A stretch of DNA of 64,000 nucleotides from Sphagnum magellanicum (Eukaryota; Streptophyta; Sphagnopsida; Sphagnales; Sphagnaceae). Within the stretch, counting starts at the first letter, position 1. Each line of letters opens with the position of its first letter. Of the stretch, positions 19,799 to 61,174 are shown piece after piece. Where the stretch lies: contig CM038912.1 of assembly GCA_021904315.1 (NCBI GenBank), forward strand, positions 6,535,061 to 6,599,060. Direction: 5' to 3'. Under the pieces are notes generated by a model. The model searched no databases. It saw nothing but the letters and a program-made list of their open reading frames with translations, and was not told the origin of the DNA. Made by a program: the position numbers and the translations under genes.

Positions 19799-22700
19799 CA
19801 TTAGAAAAATAAAAGGTTATATTTTTTAAACACTGTTACAATTCATGGATTTTTAAACTAGGTTTTATAATTTAAAAATACCCAAAATGACAAGCATAAA
19901 AAAAACCACCTTGTCAATTTGGACCTTATAATTTTGACTAGTAGATAATGGACCATTTGACTAGGTCAAATTTATGCCTAAATTAAAATTATTTATTAGA
20001 TTATCATTTTTAAATTAATATATAAGTAAATTAAAAAATACGTAGATAGAAAATAGGTCTGAATAGGTAAAAAAGACACTTAGGTGGGTAAGTGATAACC
20101 TAGCCTAATCTAACCTAACTTAACATAACCTCACTTCACCTTACTAAACTACCTTAATTTAGCCTACTTACTTTAGTTCTTTAAACATGCACATAGGTTT
20201 TCATATATAAAGAACTAAACCCCAAACTTTTAAAATGATAAATCAAGGTTTTACTAACAAATTACATCATGAAAGATGTTCAACTTTCATCAAGTTTTTA
20301 TTTCACACATTTATTTGACATCATTAAACATAATAACTTAACTTAGGCAACACTTGATGGCTAAAATTAGGTTAAATCAAGTGGCTAACTTAACATGGCT
20401 TAATCTAGTGACTAAACATAATGATTAAACCTTGTATAAACATTAGTTAAACCTAATGCCTAAACATAATGGTTAAACCTAGATTAAACCTATTCGATAA
20501 ATCTAGTGGTTAGTCTTAAGCTATACCTAGTGGCTCAACTTAGGTTAAACCTAATGGCCAAATCTACTAATTAAACTTAAGTCAAATCTAATAGTTAAAA
20601 TTTGGCTAAAATTTGGCTAAAAATTTAATGATTAAACCCAATGGTTACACGTAGTCGCTAATTTAAGTAGGTAAGTGGGTGGGTTGGTATGTAGTATGTA
20701 CGTAAGTAGGTAAGTAAATGAATGGGTTGTACGAATGTGACAAAATATTGATAGGTAGGTAAATAAATAATTAGGTAAATAGGTGGATGAATAAATAGGA
20801 GATAAATACATAAGGTAACAAACCATGTCACATTTGATTAAAAAACACTGGTCATTTTGACTAAATGTTCCATTTGACTAAATACCAGTTGTACAACTTG
20901 ACTAAATGTATCTAGTCAAATAAACCAATATAGTAAAATTGATTAGTAAAAAATATACATGTCATTTAAAGCTTTGGCCTTTAATCAAAATTTACATGTT
21001 CATTAATAAAAAATGACAAATTGATCAACTTGTTTAAAAACCATGATTTCTAATAGTGAGCATAAGGTACTTTAATTATGTTAAATTAGGTTAGGTTAGG
21101 TTAAGCCAAAATAATGCCTACTTGCCTAAGGTCTTTTTCAACCTACTTACCTATTAATTTTTAAAAAATCCAAAAAATGATTTTGATTTAAGTGTAAATT
21201 TGATGCAATCAAATGGTCCATTGTCTATTAGTCAAATAGTTAATCAAATAAGTGCACAAATGGGAGGACCAATTTGGATGTCATGTAAACCAATTTTGCT
21301 TTATGGTTGCCATTGCAATGCCCATGTTGCTTTATAGAATTTGAAATTTATTAAAATGAACTTGGTTTAAATATCTTAATTTGATTATCTGCATGATGCA
21401 CAAAATCATTTTACAAATTTTAAAAAATCATAAAAACCATGGATTTTTTAACTCAAAATTCATGGACTGTATTTCTAACTACAAATTTTTTATGGATTAT
21501 AATACGGTCCATTGATTGATGGGGTGTATGTTCGAAACTTGAAACTAATAAAAGATTAAAATAAGGAAGTTAAGGGTTGAATTTTTTTTGGATATAACTA
21601 TAAGATTATGGACTTTTGAATGGGCTAATTAAGAACATTTTTTTATAAGTCCATATCATATTGGAGGAAGAGGTGTTTTATGATTTTTTGCTTACATGAT
21701 TAAAGAAAGAAAAACTTTAGATGAAACCTTAATGACATGGAAAAGATATGGAGAAAATCAATGTAAACTAGTTGTAATTTCCAAAATTTGATCAAGGTTT
21801 TGAGTAAATAGGGACTTTGGATTTGTAACAAATTGGTCCACCCATTTGTGCACCTTCCTAGTCACATTATTAGTGAAAAGAACATGTTCCAAATTGATTG
21901 CTTAATCATGTTAACAAGTCCAAATCAACTTGTCTAAATTGACAAGGTGATCTTTTTAACAACTATCATTTAAGGCATTTTTTATTAGAAAACCAATTAA
22001 GAAACCCATGAATTGTAATAATGAATGACACATTCCATTGACTCACTTGATTGTGATTTCACCTCTAAACAATGTGAATAAACAAACATTATTTGTGATT
22101 AAATAATGCACATGACATTCATGTTTAAACCATATTAATAAATGTATGACATCCATAGGGTGTATATTAATGGATTTTTAAAAATATACACCCTAACATA
22201 ATAATATTGAGAGAAATTTTTAAAAAATTAATGTTTTTGAAAGACATTAAAAAGATTCTAAGATTTTTTAAAATAAAAAACAACAAAAAGTAGTGGTTTA
22301 AGGGGGTGGGTGTGGTTCCTTATAACGTGGTTGGACCCATGTTTAAATAATATGAACCGATAGAAGAAAAAAAATTCACAATTATTATTGCCAAATTGTG
22401 GCTCAAAAAGTTTGTGATGTAATGCTTAATTTTCATAAAAAAATAGAATTATTTATGGTAGCAATCATGGTGTTGTGGCACACCAAGACCAAACTTTGGT
22501 TGTACTACAAGACGTCTCAAAAGAAATTTTTATACACTACATGTTATTCATCACATCACATACCTATTGAAGTACCTTTGCCCAAGGCATGGGAGTCTTA
22601 CTTTATGATGGTCGATCACACTATGATTAAACTAGTGAGATTGATCAAAAACTTAAAATGTTTTATCCATGGCATGTCATATATTGTGACATTTATTGTG

Positions 22701-23400
22701 TTATATAACAACCTATTAAACTTTACTTATCCTTTCTTATTAAGTAGGCCATGATTCATGGATGTTAATATCTCCCATGATTAAAGTATTAATGTCATCA
22801 CCATTGAAGGCAATGGTGTTATAAGGGCCATTATAAGCAACTTGATGGCAACATGAAGTGGCCATATGTTATGTTATGTTATGATCTATAAAGGGAGTAA
22901 CAATGAGGAAGAAGACACTTTGCTACATGCAAAACTAGATTTGCTTTCGGTTGGAACCATTACATTACCTGAAGTATCCTACTCAACTACAATACCCATA
23001 TCGATTTTACAATTATACTAAGGACAACATCCTAATAAATGAGGTACTTGTAAAGGATAAAATACATGAAATGCAAGTTGTAAAACGGACTTTGACACAT
23101 GATGCATAGGTTAGGAAGCTCACAATGAGAACTTAGGAAGAGCCATAATACCTTAAAGACATTGACAATTTGGATTTTGTAATAGTCACAACAATTGAGA
23201 ACCTACTCAAGGAATATAAAGATGTGTTTGCGTGGAGCTACAAGGACTTGAAGAGAATACCGGCTCACATTGCCTAACATAAGATAGAATTAAACACTAG
23301 TATATTCTTAACACATTTGGCATTTGAATTTGGTTTTCAGAGCTACTATCACTTCATTCCTATTGGAATTGTTGCACTTTGCACCCTATTATTAGCAATT
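19799..23400 (+). repeat. Module B copy 2 (most complete)
   Basis: Collinear with 37,580-40,620 from about 20,290 on and, over its first half, with 1,259-2,765. The first ~1.4 kb is non-coding with iterated TTAAACCTAATGG-like motifs and GTAGGTAA-rich DNA. The rest is a decayed Gypsy gag-pol segment described separately. Only 21,240-21,800 has a reverse counterpart in the right arm of the inverted repeat (about 56,930-57,485). Confidence 0.8.
22398..23310 (+). pseudogene. Decayed Ty3/Gypsy protease-RT fragment
   Basis: The open stretch at 22,398-22,754 encodes a peptide ending LLSRPW, followed in frame by DVNISHD after one Phe-Met pair. It fits the C-terminal part of Gypsy retropepsin and its linker (LLGRPWLRDAKVSHDW type). 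Further on, 23,197-23,300 reads EYKDVFAWSYKDLKRIP, then a TAA stop, then HKIELN, the lead-in to reverse transcriptase. Frames are broken between these landmarks, so no product is expected. A matching relic lies at 39,596-40,515. Confidence 0.8.
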
Positions 23401-23700
23401 GAGTTTCACTTGGCATTTTATGGCTATTTGGTTCGCTTTCTTGGTATAAAGGGTAATATCTACCATACTTACTAGTGAATCAGATCCACAACCAAGTGCA
23501 AGTCATGATTATAACCACTTTGGTAATTGGTTTTATGTTGATCATCCACATTTACTATCTACATTAAGGATGGTTTTTTTATCTTCAACCCCAACATGTA
23601 ATTACACCACGAGAACATAACATAAACAAAACTCTCACCATTGTTTAGGGTAGATGTAAACTATGGTGATTTAAAAGCAACAAAAGTCCCAATCCCAAAA

Positions 23701-25795
23701 CATTAGAAGAAAATTGTCATTTTTCAAATGTCGTATGCAACTATTTTACAGTTACATGTGACATATGCAACTACTAAACCCCATGGTTACATAGGACAAG
23801 TTGCACATGATTAACAATTGCATATGACAACATGTATGCAAATAATATATATGGTATGAATTTGTACTTTATACATTTACATTATTCTACAAGGGTTGCC
23901 CATGGTGACATGCATTCACTTGTGAAGTTCAATTATATGATGACACTTGACATTTAAGCATTATTTCAATATTCATCATTATTAATAAATTAATAATATC
24001 TTGGCCATCCAATAAAATGTGAATCGGATTTTGACACATGTCCATTTGTGAAGGTGAATTATGTGGTGAGACATGGCAATTTAAAAAACCCATTGATTAT
24101 TATTTTTTAATTAATTAAGTAGGTAAGTCATAGGTAGGTAGGTAGGTTTAAGATAATCCAATTTTGTTTTTGGGTTTAACTTATTTCATTGGCTCATCTG
24201 AAATGGCATTTGGTACTTGGTTTGTGAATAAATCAAATGCACTTATTTATATAACGTGCACATTTGGAATCCACGGCAAAAAATATGGGATAAAAATTCA
24301 ATTGCAAGTGCAACCAATGTAGTTGCAACTTACATGCAAATAACCATATTAACATAGTTTACCTACTAAATAAATATATTATTTTATAAGTATTAATAGG
24401 TTAAAATATATAATATAATATAATGATAATATTATTAATTGGTTAATATTCATTAATATTAATATTTTTTATTATGATAATACTTTAATAGTTATGATTA
24501 CTTACAATAATAATGATCAATAATATTATATTATTATTACTTAATTTAGATTCATAAATAAATAAAGTTAGTAATTAACCTAGGCTAAGGTACTTGTAGG
24601 CAAATTAATGTAACCCATTAGCCATACATATATCACCATAATTAATAATATAATTATAATTATAATCACTGAATATTATTATTATTATTATGAAAAATTA
24701 AGACTAAAAATAATTTAAAAATTTCGTAACTATATTAATTTAAATAAATACTAATAATAATTCAATAAGTAGTCATATGTTAATTATTGTAACGGACTAA
24801 CCACAAATGTAATAGCATAATTTAAAATATTATAATAAAAATTAAATAATATCTATCAAATATGGAAATATTATTATTATTATTATATAATCAATATTAA
24901 AATTATTTCTACTATTTATAAATAATTAATACTACTATAATATTATTACATAGCCAACGCTAATAATTTGTAAACTAACATGTGTAACCTGTTAAACATA
25001 AATATAATATCATAATTTATAATAAGATAATATAATAATATTATTGAAGAATAAAATGATATTATTATTTAAATTAATAATAATAATAATAAATATTCAA
25101 TAATAATAAATTCATTAGTGTGTAAGAATATTAATAATTATAAGTATTATTATAATTTCTAAAAATCATTATATGTGATCAACTATAATGATAATAACAT
25201 AATAAAAAAATTTGGGATAATGTTTTTTGGATTAAATTAACCACATGGCTAAAATAATTTTGGTTAAACTAATTACAATGCTAAATTAATGATGGATAAA
25301 CTAATTTTTTTCTAAAATAATTTAGAAGTTGAATTTAAAATAATATTTTAATTTTGGGTCAACTAACCATAGTTAAACTAACTACAAGGCTAAATTTACT
25401 AATTCATTTAGTCATGCTAGTTTAACTATTATCAGTTTAATTTAACCTTTTAGCTTGTTTGGTTTTTTATTTAGTTTAGCCATGGTTAATTTAACCAACA
25501 TTAGTTTAGCCAAAGTTAATTTACCCAATATGGTTAGTTTAACCATATTTAATTTAGCTTCAAAATTAGTTTTGTTATGGTTAATTTAACCAAAGTTAGT
25601 TTATCCTCATATTTATTTTTTCCATAATTAGTTTAGCCAAAGTTAGTTTAAACTCATAGTTAAACTGGCCATGGTTAGTTTAGCCAAAGTTAATTTAACC
25701 TTGATTAATGTGAGTTCAGCCTAGGTTTAGCTAATGTTTTGCCTTGGGTAACATTATTTAATATGAATTTAACCTTAGTACTAAAGCTATAAAAC
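23701..25795 (-). mobile_element. CACTA-type element, truncated copy (left arm)
   Basis: Reverse complement of most of the element at 54,251-56,313. It starts CATTAGAAGAAAA (a CACTA terminus with one change), followed by subterminal ATGCAACTA repeats (23,725-23,850). It then has AT-rich DNA (24,350-25,210) and iterated GGTTAGTTTAACCATGG-like motifs (25,230-25,740). The far terminus is missing: at about 25,795 the sequence jumps to DNA that in the right arm lies 2.6 kb further on. No transposase is encoded. Confidence 0.65.
24350..25210. repeat. AT-only low-complexity tract
   Basis: Dense TAAT/ATTATT trinucleotide-like DNA with almost no G or C. It is mirrored at about 55,140-55,640 in the right arm, which is shorter. 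It is internal to the CACTA-type element. Confidence 0.8.
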
Positions 25796-28211
25796 TACCG
25801 TCCATAACATCATTACAGTTAGGGTCAAGTATCTCAAGTTTTGTAGTGATATGCATATCAAGCATGCCTCATTAATATGAAACACGCAAAATCAACTATG
25901 ACTATGGATGTCTTGAGTTACAAAAAAAATCAAAAGAGATATGTTTGCATTCAATGTGGTGTTAACTAAACCTTCAATATATGTGTCCATTGATTTCAAG
26001 CGATGCATTCTAACATATCATCATGCAAGTTGATACAAATTCCACACTTGTACGCAACCCTTTTTATGCATGATACGTGAAGCACTAAATAAGTTTAATC
26101 AAGGAATTTTAATCCTTTCAATAATTGATCATAACAAGTAAAGTCATGAAACCACAAATTGCAATGATGGGTGTTGCACTGAGAACAAAAATTGAAGAAT
26201 GAAAAGGATGTGACCAACTCTGAAACAACCCTTAAAAGTAATTTTGCGAATCACCAAACCCAAAATGACTTGGTAGGGTTATGATTTTTTAACTTAAGTC
26301 ATGCAAATGCTTATAGGTGCATTTTTGGCTATTTGAAACAAGGTTCATGCATATTTTGATTCAAAAAAATTCCCAAGATAAAAATATTGAGCCTTTCAAT
26401 CTAAATATGCATTGTTGACCCAACCAAACAAGAAGAGCCTCGATTAGATTCTACACCTATATTTGTTACCTAAACCTTTCTTCCTCTTAAATGAAGCAAG
26501 CAACACAAGTAATGCAAAGTGAACTACTATTCTACACTGTCATGTGCACATTAAAGAAACTAAATAATGTGTTAATCTCCCTTTGTCACATTGAGGGTGA
26601 TTCCCCAAGTTAAGTAGATCTAATCAAGTCATCCAAATCCTTCTATGGCAATTGTGAAATCTATTTGGCTTATCAATCATGGTTCTGAAATATAGTCATA
26701 GTGGTTATATGTCCATTCTTCATGACCTACCACATCAACCGCCAAAAAATAAACAGTTTATGACTAAGTCATAAGGATAAAATAACATTGCTACTAAATA
26801 TTTCTTGAATACAAAAATCTTCAAACACCATTTCATATATTAAATATAATTTCCAATCGTCGTCCCAATGCATTTATAATGTGTTCAAAGGCTTAAGAAT
26901 CTTCAATTATGTCAACAACCACAATGGCCAATTGAACATTCTTTGCACAACCTAATTATGGGGGAATACAAAAACACGTTAAAAAAATAGGTGGACACCT
27001 CCAAGGCAATATTGTGATAGTCGTGTGCAAATGTTGGACCAAAAAACTTGATGATAGAACTTTGAGCTTGTATAGTAGCATGGCCTCCATCACCTAATAT
27101 TTCTTGTAAACCCACAAAGAAAATAGTTGTCACTGAACTCTCACTACATTAATTCAACAACTTTAGTAGATACCCAAGTCAACTTGGGTGATTAGTTGTG
27201 AGTATTACTTATGGGAAACATGAAATACAATGAAGAACCTTTATAAAGCCAACATGAAATGTAATTTATGACTCCAAAACATAGCCACCCATCAATGTGC
27301 ACTTGGAATTCGTAAACTTGGCTAAACTAAGCTATTTAAATTAAACTTGGTTAAACTTGACTAAATTAACATAATGACATTAAATTTGGTTAATCTTGGC
27401 TATTTTGGTTAAATTTGGTTAAATATAATTAAATTAAATTAAACTTCACTATACTAAGTTTTTTTTCTTAAACTTGGTTAAACTAGGCCACTTTGGTTCA
27501 ATTTGGCTAAACTAAAATAACATAGAGTAAAATCAAATAAATGAAATTAGATTATGTTATTTAAGCCAAGTTGGGTAGGTTCAATTAACTTAAATTAGGT
27601 TAAATTAATTTTAAAAATAAATTTGGCTAAAATTAAATAAATAAACCTAAATAAAGGCATTATAATTTTAGCCAAAAAAATTCAAGTGACCAAATTTAAG
27701 TTGATTTAACCTTCTTATTTTAGTTTAACATTGTTTAGCCAAATTTAGTTAAGTTATTAGTTACCTACTTATTATTGCACATCACTTATATCATGACTAA
27801 AATTAGTCACACTATAGTAAACACTAACACCATGCTAGTATGAACATACTACGTCATTTATACCATGATTAAAACTAATCACAAATTAATAGGAGCTAAT
27901 GCCATGTTAGCATGGTCAAATACATGTGTCACTAGGATTGTCTAATATGACTATAATTGTTGGTCTATTTAGTCGTAATAGACACCACTACTTTTGGCAA
28001 GGAGGCAAAATGGATAAAAAGTACCCATTTTAGTCATTTTGAAGTAGTATAAACTTCAGCTTAGTCATCGTAATCACCAAAGGGGGGGTGAAAAAAACAT
28101 GGTTCTATTGTAATGAATCTTTTGTTAAATTCACACCTTTTCAATTATATACCATGTAGAAGGAAAACAAGGTATTTCCACTCAAGCAAATAATAATCAA
28201 CTTGATCTTGT
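25796..28211. other. Non-coding arm DNA with TTAAAC-type iterations
   Basis: Matches 49,270-51,891 in reverse. The minus frame 26,912-27,133 (73 residues, with FFGPTFAHDYHNIALEVSTY) is conserved in the right arm, where the frame has a stop near its start. I do not recognise it and treat it as a relic. About 27,310-27,760 is an iteration of TTGGTTAAACTTGGCTAAA-like units. About 27,145-28,120 may be a CACTA-like element (see 49,361-50,547). Confidence 0.4.
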
Positions 28212-29557
28212 TGTAGAAGGTTGATTACATGTAAATACCATGACCAGTAATGTGAAATATCCCCTCTCCCCAACCAATCAATACATGTGACATCTTGTTA
28301 TCTTATTATGCAAAAAGGTGTTATAGTTACAATTCAAGAAAAAAGGAAATGTGCATCAACGAGTGCTCTTAACAAGGCTTGTGCGCCACTTTTGCCACAG
28401 GTCAAGCACCACATGTACGAAACCCATGCATGAACAAAACTATTTCAGGTCTCCACTAAAAGAGAAAAAAAAATCTTCAAAAGAAAACATGAAATAAAGA
28501 AAGACAAAATAAATTTCACCTACATATCCACACTTTCGTCACCACTTACTTTTCACTTTCACTATTTCCATAAACCATCGCCATCATTGCACTAGTTGTT
28601 GCAATGAGACTAGAGGAACTTAAAAGAAGAAAAAGCCACCATTGTCATTGTCAGTTAAACCCTAAAATAAAACTAGTTAAAAATGTTGATAGTGTAAACA
28701 CTCCCAACAAAAATTGTTGTAAAAGATTTGTTCAAGTGTAAAACTAAATAACTTAAAATAAGTTTCTGAAATTTCCCTGATGCGATAGTCCATGTCTTTT
28801 GGTGGGGGCAAGGCCCAACATACTAGAGAGGTTGTGATTTTTCTAGCGTTGAAAGTTGATGGATGTCTATGAACTCTTGGCATAATCATCCAAACTTCAA
28901 AAAATGATAAGTAGGCTATAACACCCATTGTAAAGATGTCAGAAAAGTGTGACATGGTAAAGATCCTTGATATGGATCTTAAATTCATTCTCAAACCATT
29001 GTTTTTCTCCAAATGTTGAATCTACATTAAATGAACAAATCTTTTGAAAAAGTGAAGATCGAATATTAAAACAACAAAATTAGACTTATCCATAAATTCA
29101 CCCTATCTTTGGGCATGCTTCCCCCCATCCCCTCGTTTAGTGGTATCTACAAAATAAGAAAAAAATATTAAATCTCAATATGAAAGTTTTAGCATTTAAT
29201 GCAAATAATTCAAGAGTAAATATACATGTAAGAGTAATGAAAATATATGTAGCAACAATGGAAAGGCTCAAGAAAAAGGAAAGACATGATGAAACTTAGT
29301 TTCCAACTAAAATTGGTGGAAAAACTAAGTTGGGTCCCAATTATTTCCTTTTAAAATTTTTCATCCCCAATTAGGAATTTGATGCCCTATTATGCCAAAA
29401 CTAGTTGTTCTCATCCCCTAATCGCATGACTTTACCAATAACTTTATTAGTTGCACATGATTTGAAGAAAGTTATTTTCAATTACAATAATATTGAATGT
29501 ATAGGGAAAGGGTTTAGGTTTAGACCTTTCTAGATTTGAAATTCCTCGAAAAAAAAT
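28212..29557. other. Left-arm-only 1.35-kb segment
   Basis: Absent from the right arm, where sequence equivalent to 28,205 joins directly to sequence equivalent to about 29,558 (near 49,245). It contains a 111-residue minus frame (28,677-29,012) without recognisable motifs. Its right edge falls inside the hairpin at 29,501-29,589. Confidence 0.6.
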
Positions 29558-29589
29558 CTAGAAATATCTAAACCTAAACCGTTCCCTAT
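29501..29589. repeat. 89-bp fold-back hairpin, about 36-bp stem
   Basis: ATAGGGAAAGGGTTTAGG... on the left pairs with ...CCTAAACCGTTCCCTAT on the right, with one bulge, a few mismatches and a loop of about 15 bases. The arms contain TTTAGGG-like telomere-type motifs. Only the right half exists in the opposite arm (near 49,238). Confidence 0.7.
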
Positions 29590-34410: not shown

Positions 34411-34622
34411 GTTGTGTAGCTGAAATTGGTCTCCCCTTGTTTCGTTTCTTCAATCTGGAAAATGTCCACAAAATGAATCTCTTGCCTGAAAATTTCACTT
34501 CTACACAGCTTCACAAACCTTTCTTTTGCAAAGGAAACAAGTTCAGAAAACAGATAGAGAAGTTGTCCGACAAAGGAGCAGACAGGCACAAGTTTTTGCT
34601 GATCATGCTACAATGCAGCTTG

Positions 34623-34759
34623 TTATATATGCAATTGTCAGTGGGGTGAGTTTCTGTCCTTCACCAGAAGCTTCCCATTCCCTACGACTGGTGTGGCAGA
34701 ATCTGAGCCGGGTGACAATTACGTGAGATAATGGCCTTTGGTGAGTCATGACTGACGTC
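34623..34759 (-). promoter_or_regulatory. SDR2 promoter: TATA box and bZIP-type sites
   Basis: TATATAA (minus) at 34,623-34,629, 213 bp before the ATG. TGAGTCA at 34,742-34,748 and TGACGTC at 34,753-34,759 follow upstream. No ATG lies between the expected transcription start (about 30 bp past TATA) and the chosen start codon, giving a clean leader of about 185 nt. Regulation by bZIP factors is an inference from motif and conservation. Confidence 0.58.
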
Positions 34760-34829
34760 CGCCCAGCCCAAAGGCCCAATATTTAGTAAATTTGCAGCAG
34801 ACAAGGCAATAACAGTGGGAGTGTGAAAC

Positions 34830-40620: not shown

Positions 40621-41262
40621 GCAATAGTTAATATTTGTTTATTTCTTCTTTGTTTCCTCAAGTTTTCATATTATTTGCTTGTTGTACTTCTATAGTTATG
40701 ATAGTGTTTTGTTGTTTCCACCTCTATATTTGCACTTGTAATGTTGCGTCACTTTCATCTCTAAGCAGCATGTGGTAAAAAATCTATGTTTTTTGTTATT
40801 GTATTAGTAGACTATTTTAGAGGCGACTTTGGTTTCTTTCTTGTTAGTACAGTGCATTATTACTCCTTTGGGTGAGAAATAATTTAGGCCTTTGTTTGTC
40901 CTAGTTGAACTACTTGTTATCTTAAGTTTGGGTTCGTTGCGTGAGGCTTTATTGGGTCCTAGAAGGACACCTTTTCCACACTAAAATAAATGTGGGTACT
41001 TAGTTTGCAAGTGAATTGGCTTGCTTAAGTGGCTTGTTTATTCACAAAGCTTCTACATACCTGACCTTTCCTCTTAGGAAATGTTTTTTGATAACTATGT
41101 TATACATCATGTGGTGCTTGGTTTGATAACACCATAAACAAAATCAAAGAAAAATTTGCATCTTTTAATGTACATTTTGACATCATGAAGACCTATTACA
41201 AATTTTAGACCTTGAGTCTACTTTGTGCTTTTCATTAGTCATTTGGATGGTGATTGTAATAG
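40621..41262 (-). repeat. Module A tail (reverse), spacer part
   Basis: Reverse complement of about 6,070-6,730, including the TATTGCAATAATGGAGGAGGGC block. It continues without a break into module A copy 3. It is therefore part of the right-hand unit that lost its mirror partner when module B replaced the tail at 37,580. Confidence 0.75.
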
Positions 41263-44010: not shown

Positions 44011-44097
44011 AGGAAGGTTCAACCCAAGTTTCACACTCCCACTGTTATTGCCTTGTCTGCTGCAAATTTACTAAATATTGGCCCTTTGGGCTGGGCG

Positions 44098-44234
44098 GAC
44101 GTCAGTCATGACTCACCAGAGGCCATTATCTCACGTAATTGTCACCCGGCTCAGATTCTGCCACACCCGTCGTAGGGAATAGGAAGCTTCTGGTGAAGGA
44201 CAGAAACTCACCCCACTGACAATTGCATATATAA
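44098..44234 (+). promoter_or_regulatory. SDR3 promoter: TATA box and bZIP-type sites
   Basis: GACGTCA at 44,098-44,104 and TGACTCA at 44,109-44,115 lie upstream of TATATAA at 44,228-44,234. Spacing (124 bp from GACGTCA to TATA) equals SDR2 exactly. The ATG is 213 bp past the TATA box. Confidence 0.58.
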
Positions 44235-44446
44235 CAAGCTGCATTGAAGCATGATCAGCAAAAACTTGTGCCTGACTGCTCCTTTGTTGGACAACTTCTC
44301 TATCTGTTTTCTGAACTTGTTTCCTTTGCAAAAGAAAGGTTTGTGAAGCTGTGTAGAAGTGAAATTTTCAGGCAAGAGATTCATTTTGTGGACATTTTCC
44401 AGATTGAAGAAACGAAACAAGGGGAGACCAATTTCAGCTACACAAC

Positions 44447-46430: not shown

Positions 46431-49360
46431 ATGTCACTTTTTTTTCTAGAATGTTTTGTTTAAAACCATGTTCATCCCCTTGTAATTCCCACTACAACCC
46501 CATTAAAAAGTTGCCAAGTATATTGGAAAGTGTTTCAAATTTTATATAGAAATAATGTTGTAGATAAAGGACACTAAAAAGGTAATATAATTGGATTTCA
46601 TGTATCTTGTTCTTAGAAGAATATTGTGAATGAAAGAAAATAAAGGGAATATATTCCCACATATTCCATATATGCAACTTGTTTAAAAGTGAATTTTAAT
46701 TATATTTTCATTAAAAAATAATGGATGTTTCTTCAATTATGATATTTGTCATTTTTGAATGATCTTTTGATGTTTATTGTGGTTAAACAGTGGTGGATGT
46801 ATAATCTCCATAATTTTTTTGAAGATTGCAAAATTTAACATCTTATGTTGGAAACAATATTAAGATTGGGAAATAAACCAATAAACTTCATCTTTTTCCA
46901 CCATGTATAAAATCCCATGTTTGTCTTGGGCTCCCATGCGTGTTTGGTGGTAACACCTTTGTCCCATATTGTATTTCCTCAACAATTAGGAAAATGCATG
47001 AAATACATACAATGGGGAAAAAAAATTACCCTATGAGGTTGGCCAAGGCTACATATGTTAAATTCATTTGGGATTGTATATCAAGGTTGGATGATTAAAC
47101 AAAGAATCTCCATTAATTTGAAATTTGGATGATATCAAATATTGAAAAATAAAAATGACATTCACATTTGGATGAAAATCTTAAATTTGATAAAACTATT
47201 AAAATGTATCAAAATCTTAAAATGGATGAAATTCATGTAGCATTAGAAAGATTGAACATGGATGAAATTGGACCCAAAGGTGAAACATCATGCAATAAAA
47301 GTAAGTTTTATTGTACAAAGACGTCAATTTGGAAAACGGTAAACATAACACATAAAGAAAAGCCTTGTAAAGAGGAAAGCACAAACCAAACATTCAATGC
47401 ACTCAATTTAGAACCCAAAAAGTGTGTTGATGTCAATAGCTTCATGGTTGCCATGGATCAAATGCACATTCATTGGATATTCAATATCTTGATAGAATAC
47501 GTTAACTTTAGCATTAAGAAATCTTATGATGAAGGCAACACTAAATGAAGTTGCATAAGTTATGGTGAATGTTGTGCAAGGGGCATGCCCTAAACTATTG
47601 GAGTTTAGAGTTGGAATTTAAGGCATAACTTTAAATTCTACTTTTTGTCATGATAAGATAAAAGTTGGCCTTGTTATTAGATTTGTCAAGCCCTACCTTA
47701 AAAGGGTGCAAGGAATAAACTGATGGTTTGAAGATTGTGTTGTCTTTGATCCAGTTAATCTCCCAACAAAAGATAATCAATATATCTACACAATTCACAA
47801 TCGAAGTTAGAAACTACCATTTTTTATATCAAATTTTATCCTTCAAATCAAATTAGGCATTCAAACATGAACTTGAATGAACTCTTTCATTTAGCACCCC
47901 CCATATACATGCATCACTCCCATGATCATGAAGGAGTTTAGTTCACTTTGAAAAACTCTACCATAATGTACAAGGACCTACAATTAAGCTAGAATGTACA
48001 TGAATCCCTATGTATCATATGTGTTAGTGTCTTCTAGGCTACCAAAAATGGGATGCTTGATATGGAACAAATAAACACTGAAATGGTGATAATATAGTAG
48101 GGAGTTTATTTACTTTTGGCATATTCGAGCATTCCATATTCCATTGGATAATCCACATGACAATAAAAACTTACATGTTGTTGCCTACTATGGAAGGAGA
48201 CTCGCATGAACATCAAATAAACACATTAAATCACCAAATTGTTAATGAATTAAGTCACCAAAATCTTGATAGGGGTTGTGATTTGTAGTACACTTGATTT
48301 TCGTGCAAATAAATGTTTTCAAGCCTCAAAAAGATCAACAATCTCTTTGCAATCCAAAAAACAATTACGCTTCATAGGTGGTTTTTAACATTTTGGCATT
48401 AACATATATGACAAGACTTGTAAGCACCATTCCAAAATTTCCTTATGTAAGTTGCATTATAAAATAAAGGACCATTTCAATAAACACCATCTTGTTTCCA
48501 TTTGCTTGTAATGCTAACAAGCACAACAATTTGGACAATTGTCATAGTTAAACCATCAAAGTGTTTGAATTCACAAAATAAAAAAGGATGGGTGTTAATA
48601 GCACAATGTGGCCCATAACACAAAATACACACCTTTTTTTGCACACCATTTATGGACATTTTATGGCTAGGAAGTTGTCTTGTTTGAAAACAATTCAACA
48701 CACAAGTAATTCAAATTTCAACATACCTCAAAGTTGGTTGTGAAATCTTGACCCTTTGTCCTCTTGTTTTTTTACTTTAGTCAACCTTTTAACAACTATA
48801 ATGTTCAAGTTAAGTGGAACAATCTTGAATTGAACCTTAATAATGTTTGAAAGCTCAAAGACCTAAGTTGCATGACATACATAACCTGCTTAGCAAGTAG
48901 CCTTCCCAAGGTTGCTTCAAGGTGAACCCTAAACCTTAAACCTTCATAAAATGGATGGTGGTTTATAATGGGTGTTAGTTATTTTTTATTGCCCCTACTA
49001 GTGGTAAAAGTAGTTTTATCATGAGTTTTAAATGTGCCAAAGGTGCTTTCATTGGAAAAAAAAACATTGCAACTTTTTTTCTTCATATTTTTGGTCCCTC
49101 ACTTGTACATGTTTCATGGACAACCTAGAGGGGAAACTTCTAACAGGGGGAGGTTACTCTTCAAATTGTTAAGGAAACTTCAACAATGTGGAAACTACCC
49201 ATCATGTTGTCATTTGAAAAAAAATATTTGTGATGATCGGGAAGGGTTTAGGTTAGACATTTATAAAGATCAAATTTATTATTATTTGCTTGGGATGGAA
49301 ATACCTTGTTTTCCTTCTGCATGGTATACAACTGAAAAGGTGTGAATTTAACAAAAGATT
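46431..49360. other. SDR3 3' flank, mirror of SDR2 flank
   Basis: Mirrors about 28,120-32,427 less the left-only segment. Contains the frames at 47,168-47,548 (plus), 48,477-48,701 (minus) and 49,034-49,345 (plus; mirror of 29,616-29,813). None has a recognised domain. Confidence 0.45.
47168..47548 (+). pseudogene. Unrecognised frame, open only in the right arm
   Basis: An open stretch of 126 codons starting at TTG; the first ATG is about 12 codons in. It is hydrophilic, with repeated MDEI motifs and several Cys. The mirror sequence in the left arm (about 31,340-31,690, minus) has an in-frame TGA after the KT pair and a TAG in place of the Trp of HIHW. No known domain seen. The motifs resemble the ATGGATGAAAT iterations near 11,870-11,890 and 12,700-12,900. 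Most likely a relic, possibly of repeat origin. Confidence 0.35.
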
Positions 49361-50547
49361 CACTACAATAGAACCATGTTTTTTTCACCCCCCCTTTGGT
49401 GATTACAATGACTAAGTTGAAGTTTATACTATTTCAAAGTGACTAAAATGGGTACTTTTTGACCATTTTGCCCCCTTGCCAAAAGTAGTAGTGTCTAGTA
49501 TGACTAAGTAGACCAACAATTATAGGCATATTAGACAATGCTAATGACACATGTATTTGACCATCCTAATGTGGCATTAGTTCCTATTAATTTGTGACTA
49601 GTTTTAATCATGGTATAAATGACGTAATATGTTCATACTAGCATGGTGTTAGTGTTTACTATAATGTGATTAATTTCAATCATGATATAAAAGATGTGGA
49701 ATAATAAGTAGATAAGTAATAACTTAACTAAATTTGGCTAAACTTGGTAATGATGATACTTGATTTAACTTAACTAAATTTGGTTAAACAATGTTAAATT
49801 AAAGTATGAAGGTTAAATAAACTTAAATTCAGTCACTTGAAAAAACTTTGGCTAAAATTATAATGCTTTTCTTTAGGATAATTTAACTAAGTTTAACCAG
49901 ATTTAGTTTAATTTAATTTAGCCTAATTTAAGTTAATTTAACCCACCCAACTTAGACTAAATAACATAATCTAGTTTCATTTATTTTATTTTACTCTATG
50001 TTATTTTAGTTTAACCAAATTGAACCAAAGTAGCCTAGTTTAACAAAATTTAACCAAGTTTAACCAAAATAATTTAGTTTAGCCAAGTTTAGTGTTGTTT
50101 AACCAAATGTAACCTAATTTAAGTTAATTTAATCAAGTTTAACCAAGTTTAACTTAAATAACCAAATTTAATCAACTTTACTATAACTTAACCAAGTTTA
50201 ACCAAAATAGCCAAGTCTAGCCAAGTTCAGTATAATTTCTATTGATTTAGTCAAATTTGATCAAGTTTAGCCAAAATAGCCAAGTTTAATGTAGTTTAAC
50301 CAAATTTATTGTCATTATGTTAATTTAGTCAAGTTTAACCAAGTTTAGCTTAAATAACCTAATTTAGCCAAATTTACGAATTCCAAGTGCACATTGATGG
50401 GTGGCTATGTTTTGGGGTCATAAATTACATTGCATGTTGGTTTTATAGAGGTTTTTCATTGTATTTCATGTTTCCCATAAGTAATACTCACAACTGATCA
50501 CCCAAGTTGACTTGGGTATCTACTAAAGTTGTTGAATCAATGTAGTG
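49361..50547 (+). mobile_element. Possible CACTA-like non-autonomous element
   Basis: Starts CACTACAATAGAAC and could end at GTAGTG (50,542-50,547). The interior (49,690-50,380) is an iteration of TTTAACCAAGTTTAGCCAAA-like units, similar in style to the other CACTA element. Against it: the inner terminal sequences match poorly and the flanking triplets (ATT / AGA) are not a duplication. Mirror copy at about 27,145-28,115, where the terminus reads CATTACAATAGAAC. Confidence 0.3.
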
Positions 50548-51891
50548 AGAGTTTGGTGACAACTATTTTCTTTGTGGGTTTTACATGAATACTAGGTGAT
50601 AGAGGCCATGCTACTATACAAACTCAAAGTTCTATCATCAACTTTTTTGGTCCAACATTTGCACACAACTATCACAACATTGCCTTGGAGGTGTCCACCT
50701 ATTTCTTTAAAGTGTTTTTGTATTCCCCCATAATTAGGTTGTGCAAAGAATGCTCAATTGGTCATTGTGGTTGTTAACATAATTGAATATTCCTAGGCCT
50801 TTGAACACATTATAAATGCATTGGGATGATGATTGGAAATCATATTCAATATATGAAGTGGTGTTTGAAGATTTTTGTATTCAAGAAATATTTAGTAGCA
50901 ATGTCATTTTAACTTTATGATTTAATCCTAAATTGCTTTTTTTTGGGTGTTGATGTGGTAGGTCATGAAAATGGACATATAGCCATTGTGACTATATTTC
51001 AGAGCCATGATTGATAAGCCAAATAGATTTCACAATTGCCATAGAAGGATTTGGATGACTTGATTAGATCTACCTAGCTTGGGGAGTCACCCTCAATGTG
51101 ACATAGGTAGATTAACACAATATTTAGTTTTTTCTAATGTGTACATGAGAGTGTACAATAGTAGTTCATTTTGCATTACTTGTGTTGCTTGCTTCACTTA
51201 AGAAGAAGAAAGGTTTAAGTAACAAATATAGATGTAGAATCTAATCGAAGCTCTTCTTGTTTGGTTGGGTCAGCAATGTATATTCAAATTGAAAGGCTCA
51301 ATATTTTTATCTTGGGAATTCTTTTGAATAAAAATATGCATGAACCTTGTTTCAAATAGCCAAAAATGCACCTATAATTATCTGAATTACTTAAGTCAAC
51401 AAATCAAAACCCTACCAAGCCATTTTGGGTTTGGTGATTCGCAAAATTACTTTTAAGGGTTGTTTAAGAGTTGGTCACATCCTTTTCATTCTTCAGTTTT
51501 TGTTCTAAATGCAACACCCATGAGCACAATTTGTGGTTTCATGACTTTACTTGTTATGATCAATTCTTGGGAGGATTAAAATGCCTTGATTAAATTTATT
51601 TAATACTTCACCTATCATGCATAAAAAGGGTTGCATACAAGTGTGGAATTTGTATCAACTTGCATGATGATATGTTAGAATGCATCACTTGAAATCAATG
51701 GACACATATACTAACGGTTTAGTTAGCACCAGATTGAATGCAAGCATATCTCATCTAAATTTTTTGTAACTCAAGACATCCATAATCATAGCTGATTTTC
51801 CATGTTTCATATTAGTGTGGTATGCTTGATATGCATATCACTACAAAACTTGAGATACTTGACCCTAAATGTAATGATGTTATGGAGTTCT
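50548..51891. other. Right-arm non-coding DNA
   Basis: Mirrors 25,796-27,140. The relic frame at about 50,560-50,780 (plus) corresponds to 26,912-27,133 and contains a stop near its start. No gene supported. Confidence 0.4.
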
Positions 51892-54250
51892 TATGATCTT
51901 TGTGTGGCATTAGATGCAAAATGGGGTTGGAGATGTATAATGATGGTTGTTTGGTTTCGGATAAAGTATCCCACACATTGCAATAGGGGCTATGGCCGCT
52001 TCACAACATGAATACAAAGTTCCACATGTGTAGGTATGGTATTAAGTTGGACTCACAAGTTGCTACTTCTTTGTATCTTGATATAAATTGTGTTCAAGCA
52101 GTAGCTCGTTGCCAAGGAAAACTTACATCTAGTTTGTTGAGGTGTTTGCTAGAGATTTGCAAGTTTCTTCAAAGTTAGAGGATTGGTTATCTTTAACCTA
52201 TTCATACCTTGCAATGGTTGATTACCCATTTGCATTTGCCTTCTTGATGCCACTTCTTGCATATCTTATTCAAGAGGTAAGATTTTGATTACATAGTGTG
52301 AGGGTGGTGGTTCAAAAGGTTGCAAGTAACAACACGGTAGTTAAGCTTTTCACCTTATCATTTGCATGAATGAACTACAATTTCTTTGAATAAACTTTAT
52401 CTTGAAAAGTATTTGGTGGGATTGGTTGTAGGTGTGTCGGGCGATTGATGGCTTCACTACTCGATTCGATGTTTTGTTTCATATATTTGCAAGTGCAAAT
52501 GTTTATTGTAACTACACTAAAAATGTTGATTGTTTCTAGGCCAAATGACTCAAGAAATGTTCATACATGGACAAGTGGGTGGGAATGGTAGGTTATGCCA
52601 CAGAACTTCCCATTAAAGTCATGACAATATGGTGTTATCTATAAAACTTTACTCAATTAAGGGGAATTATATTATTCCAACACAGTTGTGGGTTGTTTGG
52701 CATGCATGCATAAAGATGGTGATGCTAGTGAACAACAACATGTTTTAACCATACTCTTGGGATTTGAAGTCTTATGAGCAGTTTTGCTTAGAGAAATATG
52801 GAGTGAAGCCATGGCCATATTGGATAGCCGCATAATATGGTGGCAAAATAGGTTTAATTTGTAAGGTTTCTGCAATGTCAAATATCTGCATGTGGGTTTT
52901 GAATTTGTAATGGTTTTCAAATAATACATTTTAGTCTATTATAGCTACCTTTTAGTGGGTTGATTATATAGTTTTCATACATATGATTTTAACGCATATT
53001 GTGGTTTATTTGACTCTTTTCAATTTGTATTTTTTGTGGGGTGGGACGATGAATGTTGCCTAGCTAAATTGCAGTAGTCTAACAAGTCCTTGTATGGGAA
53101 AATGTGTAATGTCCTTGAAGACATCGCTAGCAACATTGTAACCTTAGTTGTTATAGAAGGTATGTTCCAGGAATTTTTTTAAAATTTTACTTACGTCATC
53201 ACTACTTGGATAGTTGGGTACATTTATGTCAAATGCCACTTTCTTAAGTGGAGTTGAAGTTTAGTTGCACTTAAGTAACATTTTTATCATGTCCACATTT
53301 TTTGCCTTATAAACACTCAATATGCTTTGTTGACAAGCTATTTTCCATGTTCATCACCATGTCTTATGTGGAAGTTGATTAGGATTTGTGATGGAAAGTG
53401 GATTTTGTGGTACGATCTTTTGTGGTGATCCAAAACTTTTTAAATTATGGTTTTTGTGTGTCTACCTCATTTTCTACACAACTTCTAATATTGCTAAGTG
53501 TTTTACATGTTATTTGTTGGCAGCAAACCAAACAAAGATATGAAAAAGATCTCATTGCCATTTAATGAGCAAATGCAACAGGAGCTAAGAAGGTTGTTAT
53601 AATTACTATTGATGCAAAAACAAAAGTAGCACAAGTAGGAGCAAAGAGAGGAGACAAGTTATAGTGGTTCACTTTTTGCATCCTTATGAACTTTTTGCAA
53701 AGTGTATCCTATTCAAATGCCACAAACACATTGTAAAATCATCAATTTCACAAAATATTTATGGGTTAAGATTTCCAACTAAAATAAGAAACATTTATTA
53801 AGGGGTGAAATTCAATAGACATATACCAATCATATAATAATGAACTTTAAAAATGGACATATGGACTATAATTTGGGTTCTACATTAGCATTCAAATCCA
53901 TTTTTTTAATGATTTCATATCATTATTTTTTATAAGGACTCAATATATGATACATGATGGGAAAAAAAAAAATGGATTGAAAAAAATTACAATAAACACT
54001 TTAACCAACAAATAACTATGGACTTTTGAATGACCACATTTGGGCCTTATTTTTAAAAGTCCCAATCTTGGTCATTTTTGTTGGATTGATATTTTTCCCC
54101 CCCCTAACATGTATAATAAAGATGTTTTCTAGATGGGCAACCTTTCATATGGACTTTATTAATTGATTAATCACCACATAAGGCCCATTCAACATTGGTT
54201 TTTAACATTTTTCCCATTTTAGTGTTATTTTTTCCATTTATATGGACTTT
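51892..54250. other. Right-arm-only segment, unidentified relic
   Basis: No counterpart in the left arm. On the plus strand (52,545-52,910) broken frames read MTQEMFIHGQVGGNGRL and later EKYGVKPWPYW, suggesting a decayed gene or transposon CDS, but I cannot name it. About 53,860-54,060 contains a GGACTTTTGAATG motif also present in module B (21,610, 38,840). Confidence 0.35.
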
Positions 54251-56313
54251 CACTAGTAGAAATCCTATTGTTTGCAACTAGTCACTATGCAACTTACATG
54301 CAACTAGGTGTCATTTATAACTCATTGGTTGTGTGTGCAACTACAAAATTGATACAATATAATTTTGGGCCATACGGTTGTGTGTGTAATTAACATGCAA
54401 TTAATAGTGTACAAAATGGACATGTGTCATAAAAATCATGACCTAAGCTAATACATATTTACATTAATATACTAAATACATCTATTTAAGCTATGTATAG
54501 TAGTTTTATACCTTTAATAGTAAGGTTAAACTCATATTAACTAATGTTACCCAAGGATAAACATTGGCTAAACCTAGGCTAAATTCACATTATTAAAGGT
54601 TAAACTAACTTTGGCTACACTAACCATGGCAAAACTAACTACTAAATTATACTAACTTTGGTTAAGCAAACCATGGCTAAACTAACTTTAGCTAAACTAA
54701 CCACAGCTAAACTAACTTTGGCTACATTAATTATGGCAAAAATAACTATGAGGATAAACTAACTTTGGTTAAATTAACCATAATAAAACTAATTATGAAG
54801 CTAAATAAAATTTGGTTAAACTAACCATATTGGGTAAATTAACTTTGGCCAAACTAATGTTGGTTAAAGTAACTTTGGTTAAATTAACCATGGCTAAACT
54901 AAATAAAAAACCAAATTAGCTTGGAGGCTAAATTAAACTAATAATGATTAAACTAGCATGACTAAATTAATTAGTAACATAACCTTATAGTTAATTTATT
55001 TATGGTTAGTTGACCCATAATTAAAATATTATTTTAAATTTAACTTCTGAATTATTTTCGGGAAAAAAAAAAGTTTATCCATCATTAATTTAACTTTGTA
55101 ATTAAATTTAACCATGGTTAATTTAGGTAAAATTATTTAGCCCAATTTTTTATTATATTATTATCATTATAGTTAATCACATATATTCATTTTTAGAAAT
55201 TAAATTTATATTTATTATACTTATTATTAGAGATAATAATATCATTTTATTATTCAAAAATGATTATTTTAGTATTATTATAATATTATTATTATCCTTA
55301 TTTTTCATAATAATTATATTATTATTCAATAATTATAATTATATTATTATTTATGGTAATATATTTATGGTTGATAGGTTACATTAATTTGCCTACAAGT
55401 ACCCTGGCCTAGGTTAATTAATATATTTATTTATTTATGAATTTGAATTAATTAATAATAACAAAATATTACTAATCATTAATTATTGTAAGTAATCATA
55501 ACTATTAAAATATTATTATAACTATAAATATTAATATTAATGAAGATGAACCAATTAATAATATTATCATTATATTATATGAATTTTACCTATTAAGTTT
55601 TAATACTTATAAAATAATATATTTATTTAATAGGTAAACTAGGTTAATATGGTTATTTGCATGTAGGTTGCAACTACATTGGTTACACTTGCAACTGAAT
55701 TCTTTATCTCATATTTTTTGCCATGGATTCCAAATGTGCACATTATATAAGTGCACTTGATTTGTTCACAAACCAAGTACCAAATGTCATTTGGGATGAG
55801 CCAATGAAGGAGGCTAAACACAAAATCAAAATTGGATTATTTTTAACCTACCTACCTACCTACCTACCTACCTACCTACCTATGACTTACCTACTTAATT
55901 AATTAATAAATAAATAATCAATGGGTTTTTTTAATTGCCACGTATCACCACATAATTGGCCTTCACAAATGGACACGTGTCAAAAATTGATTCACATTTT
56001 ATTGGATGGTCAAGATATTATTAATTTATTAATAATGATGAATATTGAAATAATGTTTAAGTGTCACGTGTCATCATATAATTGAACTTCACAAATGAAC
56101 ATATGTCACCATGGGCAACCCTTGGAAAATAATGTAGATGTATAAAGTATAAACTCATATCATATATATTATTTGCATACATATTATTGTATGCAATCGT
56201 TAATCATGCGCAACTTGTTGTATGCAACCATGGGGTATAGTAGTTGCATATGTTGCATGTAATTGAAAATTAGTTGCATATCATAGTTGCAAAACGACAC
56301 TTTTCTTCTAATA
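54251..56313 (+). mobile_element. Non-autonomous CACTA-type DNA transposon
   Basis: 5' end CACTAGTAGAAATCC followed by subterminal GCAACTA repeats (54,275-54,350). 3' end is the reverse complement of TATTAGAAGAAAAGTG, with subterminal TAGTTGCATA repeats (56,200-56,290). The terminal inverted repeats match over TAG-AGAAA and TTTGCAACTA. A TTT triplet flanks both ends, consistent with the 3-bp duplication of CACTA (En/Spm) elements but weak in AT-rich DNA. The interior is AT-rich, with iterated TAAACTAACCATGGC-like motifs and nine ACCT units at about 55,846-55,882. No transposase is encoded. Confidence 0.65.
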
Positions 56314-57485
56314 TTTTGGGATTCGGGCTTTTGTTGTTTTTGAACCACCATAACTTACATCTACCCTAAGCAGTGGTGAAAGTTTTTGTTTATGTTATGT
56401 TCTCATGGTGTAATTACATGTTGGGGTTGAAGATAAGAAAAACATCCTTAATGTAAATAGTAAACATGGATGATCAACATAAAACCAATTACCAAAGTGG
56501 TTATAATCATGACTTGCACATGGTTGTGGTCCGATTCACTAGTAAGTATGGTAGATATTACCCTTTATACCAAGAAAGGGAACCAAATAGCCATAAAATG
56601 CCAAGTGAAACTCAATTGCTAGACCATATGCCATTTTTCATATTGTTGTTAAGCACAACCCTAACAATTGTGTGGCTTGGCTGAGTGGACATATGATGAA
56701 AAGACATGTAGAATTACTTACATGCATTTATGCTTGATTACTTTATAGGTAAATTTGATCTAAAATACTTATTGTCCACTTTTTAAGCACCATTATTTCA
56801 TTCATTTATTGTAAAGGGATTCTATGTGTCTTATTTGGGTACTAGAAATTGCTTTAGGAATCGATGCATGGTTAGGTTGTCCAATTTGCCATAAAACCAA
56901 CGTCCTGATTTTTTTTTTAAATGGTAAAATTTTGGAAATTATAACTAGTTTACACTAGTTTACATTGATTTCCTCCATATTTTTTCCATGTCATTAATGG
57001 CACATTTAAAATTTATATTTTCTTAAAACATCTAAGCAAAAAAATCACAACATATTTATTCCTCCAATATGATATGGACTTAAGAAAATAGAGGTTCCTA
57101 ATTAGCCTAGTCAAAAGTCCATAAGTATAGTTTTAAAATTCAACTCATTATTTATTTTGTTCCGACACTTCTTTGATATGATATTTTACTAATTCCCAGT
57201 CCCTAACACACAACCCATCAGTGAATGGACCATAGCATAGTCCATATAGAAATGGAAGTTAGAGGTGCAGTCCATGAGTTTTAACTTCCAAAGTCCATGA
57301 CTTTTATGATTTTAAAAAAATTGTAAAATGATTTTGTGCATCATGTAGATATTCAAAATTAATATATTTAAACCAAGTCCATTTTAATAAAATTTTAAAC
57401 CTATAAAGTGACATGGGCATCGTAATGGCAACCACTAAGCAAAATTGGGTGGCATGACACCCAAATTGGTCCACCCAACCATGCA
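56314..57485. other. Right-arm outer flank
   Basis: Mirrors 23,400-23,700 and about 21,240-21,800. The Gypsy protease-RT stretch found between these on the left is replaced here by about 300 bp of unrelated DNA (56,640-56,930). Short frames (56,466-56,684, 57,304-57,486) are relics of the same decayed element. No gene. Confidence 0.5.
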
Positions 57486-61160: not shown

Positions 61161-61174
61161 GGACCCTCTCTTTT

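Follow-up and report, generated by a model that had tools for sequence, protein, structure and literature searches.

The Salix purpurea W chromosome carries the palindrome W.P1, whose arms of about 20 kb enclose a spacer given as 2.6 kb in the text and 3,586 bp in a table of the source, and the arms are described as sex-linked, on average >99% identical, and subject to conversion that is local rather than complete (PMC7023750). In soybean, an inverted cluster of metabolic genes at the I locus (GmIRCHS) lies among neighbouring paralogues, has been shaped by recombination between duplicates, and is reported to yield CHS siRNAs (PMC6710647, PMC3804491, PMC13051633). For the moss Physcomitrella, one report describes highly similar tandem gene copies and proposes gene conversion (PMC3045890).

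The locus described here lies in a 64,000-nucleotide stretch of Sphagnum magellanicum DNA (the window), positions 6,535,061-6,599,060 of C6. Like W.P1, it is a plant inverted repeat with a short spacer and local arm-to-arm conversion, but its arms range, segment by segment, from about 90 to 98% identity and sit in a tandem gene array on C6. It resembles GmIRCHS in its inverted metabolic genes, in its neighbouring paralogues and in bearing the marks of recombination among duplicates, although the moss SDR pair is divergently oriented. With the Physcomitrella copies it shares moss tandem duplicates with proposed conversion; in Sphagnum, however, the tracts are mapped, a direction is proposed and most coding sequence lies outside the tracts. 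Searches of the literature on Sphagnum SDR duplication and on moss inverted repeats, conversion, and tandem and segmental duplication returned no title on this locus. Overall, the locus is largely explained and clearly illustrates a type of genome rearrangement that is already known.

Structure of the inverted repeat

Self-comparison of the window gave a single collinear inverted chain (Table 1), that is, one continuous antidiagonal with indels instead of isolated repeats, as expected from a sequence-only reading that had called a large imperfect inverted repeat. The arms measure 14.2 kb (left) and 15.4 kb (right), shorter than the roughly 16 kb of that reading, with outer ends at 23,393 and 56,621. 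The spacer of 3,677 bp is far shorter than either arm and lies within a few bases of its predicted position (37,580-41,262). When 20 left arms randomised by first-order Markov resampling were compared with the right arm, the top score was 39 bits.

Table 1 Features of the window and its inverted repeat (window coordinates)
Feature	Position	Strand or orientation	Details	Source
SDR1	13,586-15,601	-	other subgroup; open frame; exons 94.8% identical to SDR2	
SDR2	32,428-34,410	-	four exons (34,410-34,388; 33,920-33,659; 33,461-33,279; 32,847-32,428); 295 aa; open frame; GT-AG introns	
SDR3	44,447-46,430	+	four exons (44,447-44,469; 44,937-45,198; 45,397-45,579; 46,011-46,430); 295 aa; open frame	
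Left arm (unit 2)	23,393-37,582	-	outer segment with CACTA remnant, SDR2, upstream module M2	self-comparison
Spacer	37,583-41,259	.	R' overlapping segment E3	self-comparison
Right arm (unit 3)	41,260-56,621	+	M3, SDR3, outer segment with CACTA element	self-comparison
Chain piece	23,393-24,722/56,621-55,277	inverted	88%	
Chain piece	24,983-25,806/55,383-54,492	inverted	75%	
Chain piece	25,801-27,559/51,886-50,110	inverted	89%	
Chain piece	27,315-28,209/50,227-49,266	inverted	82%	
Chain piece	29,618-37,582/49,229-41,260	inverted	93.7% over 7,996 columns; 12,100 bits	
Inner tract of left arm	36,350-37,582	.	partner 41,260-42,500; 1.8% divergence; outer limit approximate	
Second low-divergence tract	33,921-34,680	.	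SDR2 5' region, exon 1, intron 1; partner 44,177-44,936; 2.0%	
M0+E0	2,767-7,097	+	shortened copy resembling inner end of unit 2; lies between units 0 and 1 of the tandem array	self-comparison
Repeat R	19,797-23,391	+	upstream segment of a unit; end abuts outer end of left arm (breakpoint J1)	
CACTA-type element	54,251-56,313	+	right arm; TSD TTT; site empty in unit 4	
633-bp insertion	56,860-57,492	.	transposon-like; imperfect TIRs; TSD TTAGGA	absent from unit 4

The left arm lacks 2.6 kb present in the right arm (51,886-54,496) and the right arm lacks 1.37 kb present in the left (28,210-29,558). Both gaps look like deletions because unit 4, a further copy downstream, retains most of both segments. 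A false head-to-head join or a collapse of copies deserves hardly any credence: arrays of similar units are difficult to assemble, yet the arms are 2-10% different, each with private deletions, transposon insertions distinguish units 3 and 4, and no N occurs in the 264 kb of sequence read at the locus, so the earlier judgement that collapse is unlikely stands.

CACTA transposons are recognised by a CACTA terminus and a 3-bp target duplication. The right-arm element opens with CACTAGTAGAAA after TTT at 54,251 and closes at 56,313, before TTT, with the degenerate end TTCTAATA. It is about 2.1 kb long and has dispersed relatives in the genome; its left-arm counterpart (23,701 to about 25,802) has lost the CACTA terminus. 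The terminus, the TTT flanks and the absence from unit 4 confirm the CACTA element that had been suspected in the arms, and its presence in both arms but not in unit 4 implies that the common ancestor of the arms is later than unit 4. Unclassified and CACTA repeats are reported to be the most abundant types in Sphagnum divinum (PMC9946827, PMC13120521).

The mirror order of landmarks holds along the chain but fails for the outermost pair (21,240/57,485). The match there (21,261-21,842/57,477-56,875) is 75% identical and its right member lies in the 633-bp insertion, for which unit 4 has the uninterrupted site near 91.7 kb. As a separate insertion flanked by target duplications, it disqualifies the outer landmarks as part of the inverted repeat. 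Nothing was seen to support its label as a Gypsy relic edge, and its ends form imperfect terminal inverted repeats. For two arm frames (28,680-29,021 and 47,159-47,545) Pfam gave nothing above cut-off, and scans of the window yielded neither an Rfam match at gathering score nor an ARAGORN tRNA.

SDR genes and the surrounding array

The SDR pair announced for the arms is real, intact and mirror-image, and the 5' ends of the two divergent genes face the axis; exon 1 of SDR3 was inferred from splice sites. Classical SDR motifs are TGxxxGxG, NNAG and YxxxK, and SDR3 has TGANKGIG, INNAG and YAVSK. The Pfam family adh_short matches its exon 2 above and exon 4 below cut-off. Its sequence resembles those of CBR1 (1wma; residues 7-272 of 287), salutaridine reductase (3o26) and menthone and isopiperitenone reductases (5l51, 5lcx), with a glycine-rich motif, NNAG and YxxxK in common. 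SDR2 and SDR3 are thus predicted to encode carbonyl-reductase-like short-chain dehydrogenases. Both genes likely remain under purifying selection (dS 0.084, dN 0.018, dN/dS 0.21 between them); their products differ at 12 residues.

The mirror-image pair is nevertheless not isolated. Reading 200 kb around the window revealed five SDR units on C6 between -9,463 and 82,975 (window coordinates; about 92 kb) in the orientation (-)(-)(-)/(+)(+), with the inverted repeat at the point where orientation changes, which rules out a standalone palindrome. Units 3 and 4 are direct repeats (41.5-60.1 and 77.2-94.3 kb). M0 is 95.9% identical to M2 over 3,645-6,083, and segment E3 (40,244-41,259) recurs next to M0 at about 6,084-7,097. 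In the spacer, R' (37,593-40,600) is a direct repeat of R (20,306-23,391); the two differ by 5.3-10.1% over the last 1 kb and by 12-31% farther from the break. Had R and R' been duplicated together with the arms, as the inversion model preferred below would have it, they should equal the arms in age, and only the last 1 kb does. Their greater age away from the break suggests that the duplication boundary lies inside R, or that R recombined.

In an unrooted FastTree gene tree, SDR2 and SDR3 group together (0.979) and are joined with SDR4 (1.000). SDR0 is not paired with SDR1 but falls outside a group of SDR1 and five dispersed copies (0.958), a placement that would not be expected had unit 1 simply been duplicated late, as in the preferred model. 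The genome has ten close SDR copies, the dispersed ones being on C1 (two), C5, C11 and C17. These raised the idea of a mobile element with fixed ends carrying the SDR unit, but no fixed ends emerged from the four borders seen, which differ: homology stops on one side at the equivalent of -14,782 (C11) and -14,993 (C1a), and on the other near -3,512 (C17) and at about +4,256 (C11). The other end stretches (right end of C1a; both ends of C1b, C5 and C17) hold unrelated repeats or nothing in place of a unit match.

Signs of gene conversion between the arms

Divergence between the arms is heterogeneous (chi2 214, df 48, p 8e-23; 49 windows of 250 compared sites each). By segment it ranges from 1.8 to 10.2%, with 1.8% in the inner 1.24 kb, 2.0% in SDR exon 1 and intron 1, and 5-10% elsewhere; near-identity throughout (>99%, in the manner of sex-chromosome palindromes) was not found.

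M0 can serve as a witness to the history of the inner tract. Among three-way sites, those where the left arm agrees with the right arm and those where it agrees with M0 stand at 60:10 in 41,260-42,500 and at 11:62 in 42,750-43,733, a contrast with a Fisher p of 2e-18 that is post hoc, the tract limit having been set after viewing the windows, and that excludes the 237 sites of 42,501-42,749 (4:8). There are thus tracts in which the arms match each other better than their nearest relatives. Differences between the left arm and M0 number 72/1,232 inside the inner tract and 19/974 outside, whereas those between the right arm and unit 4 are alike (73/985 vs 59/973, p 0.24); the raised value for the left arm together with the unchanged one for the right fits copying from right to left. 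Against this reading stand the counts for the right arm and M0, 72/1,232 within the tract and 75/974 beyond it (p 0.086). On balance we infer that the inner tract of the left arm was copied from the right arm.

Run-length permutation, which is independent of the chosen tract limit and whose P values are uncorrected for the number of pairs, supported left-right runs in the M part (0.0003 and 0.0005; 6 pairs, 10,000 permutations) and in the gene part (0.0007; 15 pairs, 3,000 permutations). Among other pairs, the left arm gave 0.0002 with M0, 0.008 with u0 and 0.022 with C11, and the right arm gave 0.05-0.06 with unit 4. The M0 signal fits the origin of M0, and the remaining ones may reflect additional exchange or chance. 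Outside the tracts, in the stretch 46,617-46,863, the left arm is nearer to unit 4 (5.7%) than to the right arm (11.4%), and such stretches indicate a history more reticulate than a simple tree.

Signs of the arm-to-arm conversion that had been foreseen for SDR2 and SDR3 lie in the inner 1.24 kb and in the region of exon 1 and intron 1. They do not extend to the main coding exons: conversion over their body is rejected, the dS of 0.084 being close to the divergence of unconverted arms.

Origin of the inverted pair

The locus is probably a secondary inverted pair within the five-unit array, produced by inversion of a tandem unit followed by duplication and conversion. An in-silico flip of 23,393-37,582 (plus strand, pieces of at least 150 bp listed) turned the sequence that begins at 20,310 and runs on across the flipped arm into a direct collinear chain against 37,593-56,621, interrupted only by the known indels and by about 650 bp (E2) absent at the breakpoint. 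Because this flip yields one head-to-tail chain, inversion of one tandem unit is the best model. The starting point would have been a unit ordered R, E, M, SDR and outer segment, with CACTA already inserted, that was present twice, head to tail, as units 2 and 3. Unit 2 would then have been flipped in place by end-joining of breaks at 23,391/23,393 and 37,582/37,593, creating the inverted repeat. Afterwards, units 1 and 2 were presumably duplicated in tandem, giving unit 0 and the truncated M0, and next right-arm sequence would have overwritten the 1.24 kb of the left arm that lies nearest the axis. A second conversion tract would have made the SDR 5' ends alike. Speculatively, a single break-repair event may account for both the missing E2 and the inner conversion.

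Alternatively, a fold-back or template switch could have copied the right arm inverted in one step, with R already beside the position of the left arm. This direct palindromic duplication is a serious contender, if an unlikely one. It needs no earlier tandem stage of units 2 and 3, agrees with R and R' being for the most part older than the arms, and suits, as the inversion also does, the lack of extended homology at either breakpoint. It would, however, require that R happen to lie exactly where the new copy ends and that it match the R' in front of the right arm in both orientation and end point (about 40,600); a simple flip, moreover, restores collinearity.

A silencing locus, in which transcription across the spacer gives hairpin RNA and then small RNAs against the SDR family by analogy with the soybean I locus, is improbable. 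Gene sequence does occur in the inverted arms, the inner stem (1.24 kb at 98.2% identity, its longest exact run 222 bp, with a 3.7-kb loop) would be suitable, the ten close copies offer targets, and the inverted CHS cluster provides a precedent (PMC3804491). Read-through from SDR2 and SDR3, which the sequence-only reading had named as a small-RNA source, is disfavoured because transcription of both genes leaves the axis, and both frames are still open at the low dN/dS given above. A hairpin transcript would need to start in the spacer or upstream in antisense, and most of its sequence would come from the upstream module. Still a shade less credible is the idea that right-to-left conversion renews the inner stem and that hairpin RNA from the promoter-side module controls the ten-copy family transcriptionally.

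Because both the outgroup unit 4 and the fossil copy M0 are present, inversion, tandem duplication and directional conversion appear partly separable at one plant locus. Local arm-to-arm conversion, as in sex-chromosome palindromes, is here seen in a tandem gene array of a peat moss, and most coding sequence can escape it.

An inverted repeat within an array of five SDR units

Self-comparison of the window yields a single inverted chain, interrupted by indels, that pairs 23,393-37,582 (left arm, unit 2 with SDR2) with 41,260-56,621 (right arm, unit 3 with SDR3) across a spacer of 3,677 bp. The best segment of this chain (29,618-37,582 with 49,229-41,260) is 93.7% identical and scores 12,100 bits, versus at most 39 bits for randomised left arms against the right arm (n = 20, first-order Markov), and the giant imperfect inverted repeat claimed by the sequence-only reading is thus recovered. 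Of the outermost landmarks it had counted as part of the repeat, the right one (56,860-57,492) is instead a separate insertion bounded by terminal inverted repeats that match imperfectly, and its site is uninterrupted in the sister unit near 91.7 kb. Relatives of this insertion within two direct repeats, R (20,306-23,391) and R' (37,593-40,600), account for matches of 75-76%.

When the window was joined to 90 kb leftward and 110 kb rightward, five SDR units were found. Units 0 and 1 form a direct repeat (92-96%), as do units 3 and 4 (84-92%, reaching 60,098/94,340); given the orientations of the five units, the inverted repeat is therefore the sole orientation switch among them. Downstream of unit 3, direct repeats of approximately 870 bp that are 94.0% identical (60,307-61,175 and 67,402-68,270, the second past the window end) enclose reading frames for gag and an aspartic protease (62,039-63,520). 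To judge by these repeats and frames, 60,307-68,270 is probably a Gypsy-type LTR retrotransposon insertion.

Positions of features and divergence between the arms (window coordinates unless a contig is named; negative values lie left of the window)
Feature	Position	Strand	Detail
Window	G000:C6:6,535,061-6,599,060
Unit 0 gene	-8,697 to -6,698	minus
Unit 1 gene	13,586-15,601	minus
Unit 2 gene	32,428-34,410	minus
Unit 3 gene	44,447-46,430	plus
Unit 4 gene	80,180-82,179	plus
M0	2,767-7,097		95.9% to left-arm module
CACTA-type, left arm	23,701-25,802
CACTA-type, right arm	54,251-56,313		TTT duplicated
Insertion	56,860-57,492		TTAGGA target duplication
Left-right divergence	41,260-42,500		22/1,241
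Left-right divergence	42,501-44,176		103/1,654
Left-right divergence	44,177-44,936		15/760
Left-right divergence	44,937-46,430		76/1,491
Left-right divergence	46,431-49,229		233/2,794
Left-right divergence	49,266-51,886		205/2,403
Left-right divergence	54,492-56,621		206/2,017
Dispersed SDR unit copies	C1:8,567,754; C1:14,513,358; C5:10,490,244; C11:8,934,884; C17:3,003,881
Distant SDR relatives	C6:2.23, 3.43-3.66, 4.22 Mb; C1, C3, C5, C9-C11, C13, C14, C19

Origin of the inverted arrangement

The left arm sits between R and R'. Once 23,393-37,582 is flipped in silico, the sequence reads as a head-to-tail repeat, collinear through R, (segment E), upstream module M, SDR gene and outer segment; its only breaks are the known arm indels and approximately 650 bp missing at one break. 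Extended homology is absent at either breakpoint, and the inner one holds about six bases matching neither side. As the CACTA element is common to both arms and has no counterpart in unit 4, units 2 and 3 split later than unit 4. The unrooted gene tree is consistent with this order, joining SDR2 and SDR3 (support 0.979) and then SDR4 (1.000). The inverted repeat probably arose by the in-place flip of one tandem unit, with later duplication and conversion. Its main rival, a direct inverted duplication, appears unlikely overall but gains from R and R' being as old as the arms only in their last 1 kb (5.3-10.1%, versus 12-31% further out), a mismatch attributed either to a boundary of the duplication lying within R or to recombination there.

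M0, a truncated copy resembling the inner end of unit 2, lies between units 0 and 1, adjoining both, and continues into sequence of segment E now absent from the left arm. On the simplest reading, a joint duplication of units 1 and 2 would have followed the inversion, with the second unit 2 then largely lost by deletion. The simple form of such a late duplication does not fit the gene tree (unrooted), which places SDR0 outside a group of SDR1 and five dispersed copies (support 0.958); this position slightly lowers the weight of the in-place flip and slightly raises that of inverted duplication. The C11 copy (about 18 kb, about 95-96% identical to unit 0) also contains the R''/M0 junction, and its exons are closer to SDR0 (99.1%) than to SDR1 (98.2%) while its introns are closer to SDR1 (96.9%) than to SDR0 (95.8%).

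The CACTA-type family (2.1 kb) has relatives across many contigs, mostly about 70-85% identical, with matches usually beginning near 23,700 and stopping near 25,800 (40 scored of 1,075 candidates). A MITE-like stretch of about 370 bp (29,079-29,449) has at least 34 dispersed relatives at 75-79% (40 scored of 2,114 candidates) and is missing from the right arm, where it falls inside a 1.37-kb deletion.

Probable gene conversion and hairpin potential

The proposed conversion between the arms is supported in part, namely for the inner end (41,260-42,500) and for the SDR 5' end together with exon 1 and intron 1. Constraint does not account for the inner drop in divergence, because the right arm differs equally from unit 4 inside (73/985) and outside the tract (59/973; p 0.24). 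Over 42,750-43,733 the left arm stays close to M0 (19/974 differences); within the inner tract it is right-arm-like, and both arms differ from M0 at 72/1,232 sites. Sites where the left arm matches the right arm or M0 shift from 11:62 outside to 60:10 inside (Fisher p 2e-18, with tract limits set post hoc from divergence in sub-windows and 237 intervening sites, 4:8, excluded). This pattern indicates copying from right to left; the opposite direction is disfavoured because M0 would then stay close to both arms. The second tract contains a run at 44,302-44,601 (P 0.0007, one of 15 pairs tested). Speculatively, a single event could account for the inner tract as well as for the segment E sequence lost from the left arm: the left arm would have broken at its inner end, repair synthesis would have proceeded on the right arm, and end joining at 37,582/37,593 would have followed.

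By gene orientation SDR2 and SDR3 are transcribed away from each other, so the read-through hairpin suggested earlier is not expected. Double-stranded RNA would be physically possible, provided that the axis is transcribed, since the arms match exactly over as much as 222 bp and share 98.2% identity across the inner 1.24 kb.

The SDR family and comparable systems

SDR3 has four exons (23, 262, 183 and 420 bp, the first predicted from splice signals and frame) encoding 295 aa, of which SDR2 differs at 12 (dS 0.084, dN 0.018). Pfam assigns the protein to adh_short, and the top PDB chains include 5o98 (named alcohol dehydrogenase 1), carbonyl reductase 1, carbonyl reductase/20beta-hydroxysteroid dehydrogenase, salutaridine reductase, carbonyl reductase 3 and menthone/isopiperitenone reductases. 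Ten close copies, 87-98% identical across the last exon, occur in the genome (C6 five, C1 two, C5, C11 and C17 one each; 136 scored of 146 candidates). All ten keep GT-AG at aligned introns and eight keep an open frame, unit 4 and one C1 copy being frameshifted. The borders seen of the dispersed copies are not alike from copy to copy. Between the two subgroups (45,140-47,233 versus units 0, 1 and C11), introns diverge by approximately 7-8% and the 3' flank by 11-20%, which hints at a possible older homogenisation of the gene body. More distant relatives, at per-exon identities from about 83% downwards, are numerous and several lie close together; they form a large expanded SDR family.

Willow W palindromes are reported to show incomplete, local conversion between inverted arms of comparable size (PMC7023750), inverted clusters of a metabolic gene at the soybean I locus are reported to produce siRNAs (PMC6710647, PMC3804491), and concerted evolution was proposed earlier for moss gene copies (PMC3045890). 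The peat-moss repeat resembles the willow palindromes, as described there, in arm size and in its probable local, incomplete conversion. The SDR locus is an additional case alongside these examples, and one whose history is fairly readable.
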